Assembly (NCBI RefSeq): GCF_015100395.1
Contig: NZ_AP022847.1
Span: forward strand, 1,571,501-1,635,500
Length of the DNA: 64,000 bases
Direction of reading: 5' to 3'
Source of the DNA: Nitrosophilus alvini
Lineage (GTDB): Bacteria > Campylobacterota > Campylobacteria > Campylobacterales > Nitratiruptoraceae
How positions within the stretch are numbered: the stretch's first letter is position 1; every line of letters starts with the position of its first letter. The position numbers were made by a program, and so were the translations under genes. A model generated the notes under the pieces. That model was given only the letters and a program-made list of their open reading frames with translations, made no database searches and was not told the DNA's origin. Positions 50,824 through 59,253 of the stretch are shown here, in pieces.

Positions 50824-51693
50824 TCATAAATTCAATCTCTTTTTTAGCTCTGTAGCAGCATTTGTTACACTTTTGTCATTAATTTTTTTTATATTGTAAT
50901 TTTTTGTAACATTTACAGTTTCAACAATTTCATTTTTACTGAAGCATTTCAATACAGGTATCCCAAGCTCCTCAAGAAGAGTAAAATAGTGATTTTCTTT
51001 ATCATCTCTATGTATATATACTGGATTTGAATTCGCAGCTAAAGCTTCAAGAGCCGACTGAGCCGAAGAAGTAACAAAATTTTTACTTTTTAAAAGAACT
51101 TCTTCATACATCTCTCCTTCATAAATATTATTAAAATATTTTTTAAGTTCTTTATCATACCCCATAAAAAAATAAAAACCTTCCAATAGATCAAAATTTT
51201 CATCTGCAAAAGCTTCCGCATCTTTTAAAAGTTTTTTTTCGTAATCGTCATCACCATAGAAAAAAACTTTTTCATACTCTTTGTCTTCTTTCTTAAAATA
51301 GGTCTTATCTATCAAAATCGCATTTATGATATTTTCGCCCTCCAGATAAGGTGATATTACTATCTCTCCATTTTTTACACTATCTGTGGGATCTGTAGAG
51401 ACTCTCACAAAATGACTGAAGTACTCAATCATTTCCTGATGCATAACCTCATTGTATTCGTCGCTGTCAAATATTACTATATCTCCTCTTTCCGTAATAT
51501 TGGGCATATTTCTTACATCGTCAATACCCACACTTCTTCTGACACCTAGCTCTTTGGCATACGATGCGGCCCTGAAATCAGAAACCATCAAAAGCGGATC
51601 AAACTCTTCAAACTCTCTCATCAGAGCAATTACCCTTCTCATCCTGTCAAGCCCTACTCTATGACCGGTTTTTGCATAAAAAAACAGTTTCAT
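50824..51693 (-). CDS. Glycosyltransferase-like (GT-B-type) protein of unknown function
   Basis: 289 aa from ATG 51693 with AAGGG 6 bp upstream. It starts LFFYAKTGHRVGLDRMRR, a glycine-containing loop reminiscent of GT-B/MurG- and PseG-like proteins, and has alternating strands and helices (VIFDSDEYNEVMHQ, SAQSALEALAANSNPVYI near the end, where the donor-binding region would lie). No catalytic motif is sure. The longer ORF upstream is a translation of the repeat and is not real. Confidence 0.7.
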   Translation of the reverse strand: MKLFFYAKTGHRVGLDRMRRVIALMREFEEFDPLLMVSDFRAASYAKELGVRRSVGIDDVRNMPNITERGDIVIFDSDEYNEVMHQEMIEYFSHFVRVSTDPTDSVKNGEIVISPYLEGENIINAILIDKTYFKKEDKEYEKVFFYGDDDYEKKLLKDAEAFADENFDLLEGFYFFMGYDKELKKYFNNIYEGEMYEEVLLKSKNFVTSSAQSALEALAANSNPVYIHRDDKENHYFTLLEELGIPVLKCFSKNEIVETVNVTKNYNIKKINDKSVTNAATELKKRLNL

Positions 51694-51707
51694 CTTTTTC
51701 CCTTTTT

Positions 51708-51733
51708 TTCGTAATTCGTAATTCGTAATTCGT
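51708..51733. repeat. Heptamer tandem repeat (TTCGTAA), 3.7 copies
   Basis: Three exact TTCGTAA units plus TTCGT, followed by GATTGG. Same unit as at 4338-4355. It sits just upstream of the glycosyltransferase-like gene. On the minus strand it translates as the familiar ITNYEL-type artefact. Confidence 0.85.
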
Positions 51734-51781
51734 GATTGGTTGAGAAGCTTTCCTTCGTCCTTATCTGGTGAACTGGCGTCT

Positions 51782-51813
51782 GGCGGTGCAATCGCTCCGC
51801 TCTGCACATCGCC
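51782..51813. other. GC-rich hairpin element in the mnmG-GT spacer
   Basis: Bases 51771-51828 are 39 of 58 G or C in an otherwise AT-rich window. Within it GGCG-GTGCA (51782-51790) pairs with TGCAC-AT-CGCC (51803-51813) around a 12-nt loop with a 2-nt bulge. It abuts the heptamer repeat and the mnmG terminator. Its origin is unknown; a mobile remnant or a small RNA are both possible. Confidence 0.5.
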
Positions 51814-55877: not shown

Positions 55878-57716
55878 TTAGTATGATTCATCCAAAGAGC
55901 CATCTTTGATCAGACTCTTTTCAAAATTTACAACTCTGTTTCTTCCACTCTTTTTTGCTTTGTAAAGCGCCACATCCGCAAATTTTATACATTTCCATAT
56001 ACTTTCACTATCATCCGGAAATATTGATGTTCCAACACTCAGCGTTTTGGTAAAATATCCATCCGGACTTTTGATTTTCTGTTTGGAAAATTCTGTTCTT
56101 ATCTTTTCAGCTATTTTGGTTACGGCATCCTTATCACAGTTATAAAGCAGAACAAGAAACTCTTCCCCTCCGAAACGTATAGCGATATCGGAACTTCTTA
56201 TTGAATTTTTTATAACTTTGGAGACAGTCCTAATCGCTTCATCTCCAACATCATGTCCGTATGTATCGTTTATCATTTTAAAATAGTCAATATCTATCAT
56301 GAGTATACCGTATCTGATATTACTTCTAAGAGCCTGTGGTGCGGCTTTTTCAACAAACTCTTCCAAAAATTTTCTGTTGTACATGCCTGTAAGCTGGTCT
56401 ATTCTGGCCATCTCTTTTAGCATTTTCATAAGTTTTTTGCTGACAATTGCAGGTCTTGCGGCATTTATATAGTCTTCGACAAGTGGTTCAAGTTTTCTAA
56501 TTCTTTCGCTCTCCTCTTTGCTTTCGGAATATATGGAAATAATAAAGTTGAGCTCGTTGGAAATAGAATATGGAATGCAGAGATAATCCACACCCTCCTC
56601 CTCAAACAGTTCACAAACTTTTTCAAATATGCAAGAATCTATAATGGCATTTATCCTGTCTGCCCTGCATTCGCCTTCGGTTACTCTGCATCTGCATCTT
56701 TTGGAGGCATAAACAATTTTATTTGTTTTGGATGCCGTATCTGCTTCGATAAGTACAAAATCATCTATATGGAATCTCTTTTCAAGAAGATACGCTATTC
56801 TGTTATATACATCTTCAAGCTCTTTGTCATTTTCAATCGTCTTTTTAAATTTGTAAATATCAGAAAGCTGATTGACTGTTTTGTTTATACTTATAAGGGG
56901 ATCCTTATCTCTCATCTGATTTGAGTTTCTTAAAAATATATAGACTTTGCTGTCTATCTCTTTGAAAACCTTCTGTAATTTTTCTAAAAGATTGTTGAGC
57001 ATCTTTGCAACAGATTTGGTTTCGCTTGTAAAACCTCCGTCAACCCTGCCGGAATAGTCTCCATCATATGCTTTTTGCATCACCCTTTTTATAGAATAGA
57101 AGATATTTACATAGGGTTTCAGGAAATAGTTGATGATAAAAAGCGCCAAAACAATAAAGACAAAACCTATAAAAGCGTTATACAAAACAGTTTTCAGGCT
57201 TGCACCTCTCCCTTCGGTTACATCGATAACCATACTCACTACACCAAGCACCTCACCCTCTTTTGCGTTATGACATTTCAGACAGTTGGGTTTTTCAAAT
57301 GCAGATGCAATATAGGGAATACTTATTCTAAAAAGACTTTTGTCCGCAGTTTCTGTAATCTCTTTCATAACTTTGCCGGTTTTCAAAACCTCTTTGTCTA
57401 TGTCGTCTCTTGCTATTTCGTTATTGAGCCCTTTTCCAAACTGTTTTATAACTGCTGGAGACCTTGCAATCCAAATCGATTTAACATTCTCAATTCTTTC
57501 TATCTGCTCAAGGAAATAGGATCTTTTGTCCATAAAACCGTTTACCATATGAGCAGTAAGTCCGTTTTTGACCACTTCCGCAGTCAGTTTTGCTTTCTGT
57601 TCCGCGTTTTTAAAACCATAGTCTCTGAATTGCAGCAGAGTATTAGCAGTTATAAGAATAAAAGCAACGGCAAAAATTGCCAATAACAGTAGAGAAACCT
57701 TTTGTCTTGTATTCAT
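55878..57716 (-). CDS. Heme-c-containing sensor diguanylate cyclase
   Basis: 612 aa. Transmembrane helices at about 8-28 and 178-198 bracket a periplasmic domain (30-177) with a c-type heme motif C145-L-K-C148-H149, resembling the Tll0287-like/DUF3365 sensor. A HAMP-like segment (about 200-252) follows, then a GAF-like cytoplasmic domain (about 290-400) with six cysteines (C341, C343, C350, C362, C368, C380), then a GGDEF domain with GGEEF at 516-520 and an inhibitory RxxD (R507-D510). So it should make c-di-GMP in response to a periplasmic redox or gas signal, with product feedback. The signal is inference. Confidence 0.9.
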   Translation of the reverse strand: MNTRQKVSLLLLAIFAVAFILITANTLLQFRDYGFKNAEQKAKLTAEVVKNGLTAHMVNGFMDKRSYFLEQIERIENVKSIWIARSPAVIKQFGKGLNNEIARDDIDKEVLKTGKVMKEITETADKSLFRISIPYIASAFEKPNCLKCHNAKEGEVLGVVSMVIDVTEGRGASLKTVLYNAFIGFVFIVLALFIINYFLKPYVNIFYSIKRVMQKAYDGDYSGRVDGGFTSETKSVAKMLNNLLEKLQKVFKEIDSKVYIFLRNSNQMRDKDPLISINKTVNQLSDIYKFKKTIENDKELEDVYNRIAYLLEKRFHIDDFVLIEADTASKTNKIVYASKRCRCRVTEGECRADRINAIIDSCIFEKVCELFEEEGVDYLCIPYSISNELNFIISIYSESKEESERIRKLEPLVEDYINAARPAIVSKKLMKMLKEMARIDQLTGMYNRKFLEEFVEKAAPQALRSNIRYGILMIDIDYFKMINDTYGHDVGDEAIRTVSKVIKNSIRSSDIAIRFGGEEFLVLLYNCDKDAVTKIAEKIRTEFSKQKIKSPDGYFTKTLSVGTSIFPDDSESIWKCIKFADVALYKAKKSGRNRVVNFEKSLIKDGSLDESY

Positions 57717-58553: not shown

Positions 58554-58970
58554 CTATACTCCGTACATTAAAAGTCTTTTTGCAGTAATCAGATGGTATT
58601 CATCAAAAAGATCTATATCATTTGCCGCTGCAAAGTCCGCTTCTGATATCTTATCAACAGCTTCATACAGACCAAATCTATTTTTATCAAGCAAAACAAC
58701 TAGTTCTGCGACAGCTTTAAGTGAGTTTTTTGCAGTCTGTAGAATATTTTCATCAAGCGTATCGCAGATAACTACATAGTCGTAAACTCCTCTTTTTGGT
58801 CTGAAATTATCATTTTCAAAAATATCAAGCTCTCCTTCACACCTTTGCAGCTCACTATTCAAAAGTTCCGAAATTTCAGAGGGAATATCGACTGTAGCAG
58901 CAATTTTGACAAAAGGATAAAACTTAAAAATCTCTAGAAAAAGTTTTGCATCTTTTTTAGACAACTTCAT
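58554..58970 (-). CDS. Small protein of unknown function, methyltransferase-like C-terminal half
   Basis: 138 aa. I do not recognise the family. It may be a truncated Rossmann-type methyltransferase: YDYVVICDTLDEN looks like motif 4, then helices and ELVVLLDKNRFG and LFDEYHLITAKRLLMYG as late strands, but no glycine-rich SAM motif is left. It overlaps the next gene (58957-59253) by 14 bp. Confidence 0.65.
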   Translation of the reverse strand: MKLSKKDAKLFLEIFKFYPFVKIAATVDIPSEISELLNSELQRCEGELDIFENDNFRPKRGVYDYVVICDTLDENILQTAKNSLKAVAELVVLLDKNRFGLYEAVDKISEADFAAANDIDLFDEYHLITAKRLLMYGV

Positions 58971-59253
58971 CTAACTCCCTAAACATAAAAGCTTCTAAAA
59001 TATCCTCTACATAACTGTTCGGCATTGCCAAGAGCACTCTGGCTCCAAGCTCATAAACTGTATCAAGCTCTTCATTTTTGCTGTTGACTATAAAAAAATC
59101 GAAAAAATCTTCTGAAAAACTTTTTTTAAATTCTACATTTTCCAGTTTAGCTCCCTCTCCTAACTGCAAAAAAGCAAAATATTTTGCACTCTCAATCGAA
59201 GTTATTTTCGCTTCATCAATATCATTCAAATTTACGGGTATAACAACCAGCAT
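58957..59253 (-). CDS. Small protein, possibly NifX/dinitrogenase-cofactor-fold
   Basis: 98 aa. A thin resemblance to the NifX/NifB C-terminal fold is seen in the order of beta strands (SAKYFAFLQLGEG, LDTVYELGARVLLAMP), but the usual conserved His in the early strand is missing. It precedes the 138-aa gene. Function unknown. Confidence 0.6.
   Translation of the reverse strand: MLVVIPVNLNDIDEAKITSIESAKYFAFLQLGEGAKLENVEFKKSFSEDFFDFFIVNSKNEELDTVYELGARVLLAMPNSYVEDILEAFMFRELDEVV

Follow-up and report, generated by a model that had tools for sequence, protein, structure and literature searches.

The sCache_heme family (PF11845, DUF3365, Tll0287-like) was defined in a 2026 preprint (PMC12889525), the accessible part of which reports a NO-binding Cache domain, GGDEF and EAL outputs and an enrichment in Campylobacterota. 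According to that same part, the signalling member binds NO tightly, with a koff of about 6e-4 per s, lacks an axial Cys and forms no stable complex with O2. In the Geobacter heme-c chemoreceptors GSU0582 and GSU0935 (PDB 3b47 and 3b42; PF21563), a transmembrane (TM) helix, a periplasmic heme-c domain, a second TM helix and a HAMP region precede an MCP domain as output. The heme of GSU0935 has His144 and either Met60 or water as axial ligands, and a redox-linked Met/water axial switch has been proposed for it (PMC8396549). In the literature compared, the layout nearest to the one reported here is that of GSU2622, in which a heme-c motif is combined with HAMP and GAF and with an HD-GYP domain as the c-di-GMP enzyme (PMC8396549).

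Precedents for the cytoplasmic half come from other proteins. The S. aureus histidine kinase AirS likewise has a Cys cluster in its sensor region, which holds [2Fe-2S], and its motif is published as C-X7-C-X-C-X17-C (PMC4601167). Chloroplast Sensor Kinase/Hik2 offers a precedent for a [3Fe-4S] cluster with a ligand Cys in a GAF domain that controls the output, although a single Cys ligand is identified, there is no Cys4 motif and the output is a kinase (PMC6949291). In DgcZ a metal-bound Cys site regulates a GGDEF domain (PMC8262984).

Here, we describe a gene in the window, meaning the whole stretch of 64,000 nucleotides of Nitrosophilus alvini DNA that was analysed, whose product is probably a membrane diguanylate cyclase that takes a NO or redox input through periplasmic heme c and carries a four-cysteine (Cys4) metal site in the cytoplasm, with Fe-S likelier than zinc. 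The protein shares the TM, heme-c, TM and HAMP layout of GSU0582 and GSU0935 and differs in having GAF-GGDEF as output where these have MCP. GSU2622 has HD-GYP, a domain that usually degrades c-di-GMP, where the window protein has GGDEF, and the two are likened by described layout and not by the Cys content of their GAF domains. The periplasmic half is an already known type of sensor; the cytoplasmic Cys4 GAF is the less known half of the protein. The initial annotation took the pairing of the two to be undescribed, which does not hold for the periplasmic half but does for the Cys4 GAF and its pairing with heme c, for neither of which a description was found in the open-access literature. The signal is known for only a small number of c-di-GMP enzymes, and this layout lets one ask whether two metal cofactors on either side of a membrane are read by one enzyme.

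Protein layout and the predicted periplasmic heme-c domain

The gene occupies 55878..57716 on the minus strand of the window, as do all features given below by coordinates within that range, and encodes 612 aa from an ATG start with an AGAGG-like ribosome site just 5' of it. Hydropathy identifies TM helices at residues 7-28 (57633..57698) and 177-199 (57120..57188), and between them lies the heme-c attachment motif C145LKC148H149 (residues 145-149; 57270..57284), a position that agrees with its initial placement in the periplasm. Residues from about 200 to 260 (56937..57119) would form a HAMP-like linker and coiled coil; the linker of the window protein has no Pfam match, and one homologue matches HAMP at 0.0024. 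A GAF-fold domain with the start of a signalling helix follows at residues 290-432 (56421..56849), and the GGDEF domain at residues 438-594 (55935..56405), where PF00990 scores 154.5 bits against a cut-off of 23.8 (2.6e-45). The DxLT motif at 440, the RxxD of the I-site (RSSD, residues 507-510; 56187..56198) and the GGEEF active-site motif (residues 516-520; 56157..56171) are all intact, the latter two as first annotated, and the enzyme is predicted from its sequence to make c-di-GMP.

The periplasmic domain (residues 29-176; 57189..57632) is Cache/PAS-like, of the Tll0287/GSU0935 type. Taken by itself, that of the window protein scores 17.4 bits, below the PF11845 gathering cut-off of 24.1. 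PF11845 is matched by 12 of 24 relatives at E up to 1, and PF21563 (Mcp40H-20_sensor, Geobacter-type) by 8 of 24 (best 8e-5), the window protein not being among them. A sequence-profile search of solved structures gave no relevant match for either sensor domain. Because a full-length model compared with the PDB returned only matches dominated by GGDEF, residues 28-432 were modelled with the GGDEF domain left out (AlphaFold2, 71 sequences, mean pLDDT 88.5). Among single-domain matches, the closest to the periplasmic half of this model is GSU0935 (Foldseek; 3b42_B at E 3.1e-5, 3b42_A at 7.4e-4), and the modelled domain is assigned a Cache/PAS fold like that of 5b82, 3b47 and 3b42. This fold and the single CxxCH are shared with the sCache_heme family, and the periplasmic region of the window protein holds no third Cys, as in the NO-binding signalling member, described without an axial Cys in the accessible part of PMC12889525. 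The sub-threshold PF11845 score sets the window domain apart from that family, as does the Cys4 GAF, which that part of the preprint does not mention.

The CxxCH is invariant among those homologues that have the heme domain. In the N-terminal helix of the domain M57 shows no variation and H56 hardly any, and for this reason one of them is a likely distal ligand; H149 is probably the proximal ligand, with M57 or H56, or else water, on the distal side. Two open reading frames (ORFs) with a ResB region, of 1,093 and 1,112 aa, are found elsewhere in the genome (G000:C1 near 1228976 and 1405489), and both are likely fused CcsBA heme-c assembly proteins, two in one small genome. As a prediction, the covalent heme proposed by the initial annotation is well supported by the invariant CxxCH, the modelled GSU0935 fold and the two ResB ORFs.

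The genome encodes NapA, and genes for a NorC-like cytochrome c and a NorB-like protein of the COX1 family lie close to the nap cluster (assigned as Nor by COX1 family, adjacency and gene order, with no curated NorB model), which makes NO a plausible internal signal. It is quite possible that the periplasmic heme reads the ambient redox potential and not NO, a role proposed for GSU0582/GSU0935. Of the solved structures that of GSU0935, with its proposed redox-linked Met/water switch (PMC8396549), is the closest, and the invariant M57 lies in a helix able to supply a distal ligand. On the other hand, a domain of the signalling class was measured to bind NO tightly and formed no stable complex with O2 (PMC12889525), and GSU0582 and GSU0935 bind NO too, so that the NO and redox readings are mutually compatible. 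The redox proposal concerns the heme signal only, and it is compatible with the dual-input cyclase that we favour.

The same genome also encodes an MCP with a heme-Cache sensor bearing CIICH (L169:457-2052, minus strand), which matches PF21563 and PF11845, both below cut-off. With this protein present, the same type of input appears to feed both chemotaxis and c-di-GMP.

The cysteine loop of the GAF domain

GAF_2 is matched in 5 of 28 relatives (best 8.5e-6), the window copy alone giving no match, and the GAF half of the model matches 5w10, 4g3k and other GAF structures, so that the earlier label of GAF-like holds. In the model the Cys loop (residues 341-380; 56577..56696) comes after the second strand of the domain and before its last two, with a block pLDDT of about 89-93. 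GAF domains usually close over their ligand at the region that corresponds to this loop.

Six of the ten Cys of the protein (C341, C343, C350, C362, C368 and C380) sit in these 40 residues, in agreement with the original count, and random placement of ten Cys puts six of them in a 40-aa stretch with P = 0.00065. Such a cluster may look striking in a single sequence and yet be a functionless local accident of the window protein; this is hardly credible here, given the shuffling result and the conservation of four positions across the phylum. The alignment rejects chance for these four of the six Cys, while chance still stands for C362 and perhaps for C341. A role of all six as ligands was also rejected, C362 being mostly Thr in other homologues and C341 common to close relatives only (as 'CHC' or 'CRC').

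The four conserved positions are C343 (Cys 1; 56688..56690), C350 (Cys 2, within CRAxR; 56667..56669), C368 (Cys 3; 56613..56615) and C380 (Cys 4, within C[IL]P; 56577..56579). Relatives lacking these cysteines, which would speak against the initial annotation, are few: all four are retained in 123 of 131 homologues. The spacing of Cys 2 and Cys 3 is 17 in 122 of these 123, the spacings of Cys 1-2 and Cys 3-4 being variable. By weighted conservation C380, C368 and C350, together with S361 and R351, make up the top five positions within residues 290-432, and C343 is conserved at 93% by weight. The family motif reads C-x(5-14)-C-R-A-x-R-...-S-...-C-x(10-14)-C-[IL]-P, and the window protein has C-x6-C-x17-C-x11-C.

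Most alignment rows exceed four Cys, with five or six, and an extra Cys lies between Cys 3 and Cys 4 in 83 of the 131. Three Sulfurospirillum-type rows (L024, L095, L135) are without Cys 1 but have CxxC at Cys 3; another (L121) has lost Cys 3 and kept the second Cys of such a CxxC pair. Judged from the alignment, a CxxC-type Cys beside C368 could take the place of the missing Cys in these four of six partial losses. In the other two, Cys 2 is lost with another Cys nearby (L144) and Cys 1 is lost with no evident substitute (L031). Loss of all four is confined to one family (L156 in G199, L157 in G168). Since L156 lacks the four Cys altogether and still retains heme domain, GAF region and GGEEF, these Cys are unnecessary for keeping the motifs of the enzyme intact. 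Four near-invariant Cys, lost jointly in one family and partially in few rows, fit a metal site, and their strict conservation supports a cytoplasmic one as predicted. Of the cytoplasmic redox or Fe-S state initially proposed, the metal site is accordingly the part that gained support, and Fe-S in preference to zinc is a choice that we infer.

Candidate Cys ligands are present in the sensor domain, as in Fe-S sensors of the AirS, NreB and CSK type. The spacing C-x6-C-x17-C-x11-C does not match the AirS type (PMC4601167), and in the compared literature, Chloroplast Sensor Kinase included, no named Fe-S motif agrees with it. AirS is further set apart by its histidine kinase output and lack of heme, a distinction drawn from the published description and not from sequence (PMC4601167). 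That the Cys4 GAF binds zinc, either structural or released on thiol oxidation, and leaves the sensing of redox or gas to the heme alone seems to us a serious if less likely rival reading, as Zn(Cys)4 fits four conserved Cys as well as Fe-S does and the loop is modelled with fair confidence. DgcZ is a precedent in this respect, being a diguanylate cyclase that is regulated by zinc and has a Zn-Cys site sensitive to redox, and it is unlike the window protein in its CZB fold, its 3His/1Cys zinc and its lack of heme (PMC8262984). Two features weigh slightly against zinc, namely that the window protein lacks the two CxxC pairs common in Cys4 zinc sites and that the further Cys found between Cys 3 and Cys 4 in so many rows would be unusual for a plain structural zinc.

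Those additional Cys could also provide spare partners for disulfides, and many of the relatives come from sulfur-cycling genera (Sulfurimonas, Sulfuricurvum), as might be expected if the cysteines were a metal-free thiol/disulfide switch for cytoplasmic oxidants or polysulfide. Such a switch requires only two Cys, however, and we consider it improbable: four near-invariant Cys with a fixed 17-residue spacing, their joint absence in one lineage and the apparent compensation of single losses fit a metal site better. With Fe-S as the preferred occupant, the Cys4 GAF may tentatively be regarded as an undescribed Fe-S sensor, and the cyclase as a conserved dual-compartment sensor of Campylobacterota that integrates periplasmic heme-c NO or redox signals with cytoplasmic Fe-S signals. 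The Cys4 GAF would extend the list of metal-binding GAF domains.

Distribution and separability of the two sensors

In 60 related genomes, a search with the sensor half turned up homologues over the full length, at 34-49% identity and spread over many of the families sampled. The initial annotation had suggested a profile search for the same architecture, and the two-sensor design indeed recurs across Campylobacterota. The Cys-GAF profile was found in 104 of 347 Campylobacterota genomes and 36 of 63 genera, nearly always in ORFs of about 530-650 aa. This count is free of selection for the heme domain. A heme-domain scan of named genomes recovered loci in Sulfurimonas, Sulfuricurvum, Sulfurospirillum, Arcobacteraceae and others, which have the heme domain by construction and give no measure of Cys4 without heme. 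A plasmid search with the Cys4 domain gave no match, and among the sequences searched, the chromosomes being those of Campylobacterota, the Cys4 GAF has so far been seen in Campylobacterota only.

The bulk of the homologues have heme and Cys4 together. Cys4 without heme occurs in two families (f13 and f16) and in L158, heme without Cys4 in L156, and neither the heme motif nor Cys4 in L157. On a quick tree built without the Cys loop and the periplasmic domain, in which L158 and L160 lie on long branches, a minimum of three changes is required for heme and one for Cys4. The existence of all four combinations, together with these changes, indicates that neither sensor depends on the other, while most lineages keep both; Cys4 in particular is not tied to heme, as it is kept in two families that have lost the heme domain. 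An obligatory coupling of heme and Cys4 was rejected on the same grounds. The natural homologues with one sensor, or with neither, are ready-made controls.

The proposed mechanism would place two cofactor inputs in series within one membrane-bound diguanylate cyclase. The periplasmic Cache-type domain would hold one covalent heme c, at which a ligand, probably NO, or a redox change would shift the axial ligation, and this shift would be relayed through TM2 and the HAMP-like helix. In the cytoplasm C343, C350, C368 and C380 would form the metal site of the GAF domain, most likely an Fe-S cluster and less likely zinc, and the cluster would respond to O2, NO or the redox state inside the cell. 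Both inputs would converge on the coiled coil, which would govern the way in which two GGDEF domains come together, and control would run from there to the level of c-di-GMP and the choice between sessile and motile life.

Genomic context and paralogue

In the window the AMMECR1 gene lies 10 bases downstream of the cyclase gene on the same strand, and a methyltransferase (PF05430) gene lies upstream; no conserved neighbour was found in the lineage of the window copy. A paralogue of the heme/Cys4 cyclase is encoded in the same genome (L170:8117-9955, minus strand; G000:C1 near 604100-606000), directly after glmS and glnD and near flgK/flgL-like and other flagellar genes, these glmS, glnD and flagellar names being read from translations and not from profile searches. 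The order glnD-glmS-cyclase is recurrent in many Campylobacterota. Among 82 loci examined glmS is present in 48; of the 67 that were classified, it occurs in 37 of 40 non-window-like loci versus 2 of 27 window-like ones. The glmS-glnD neighbourhood belongs to the lineage of the paralogue and not to that of the window copy.

Second copies with an altered GGDEF (SGDEF and GGDIF) were observed in genomes G208 and G336 (L160 and L167). They are encoded near, and opposite to, an intact copy and are possibly inactive partners.

Elsewhere in the window, two small adjoining ORFs of 138 and 98 aa (58554-59253, minus strand) sit between a methyltransferase gene and luxS and have no Pfam match. An ORF of 327 aa (50824-51807, minus strand), likewise with no Pfam match, is situated between Rieske-type and mnmG-like genes, and its true start is probably an internal ATG before KLFFYAKTGHRVG.
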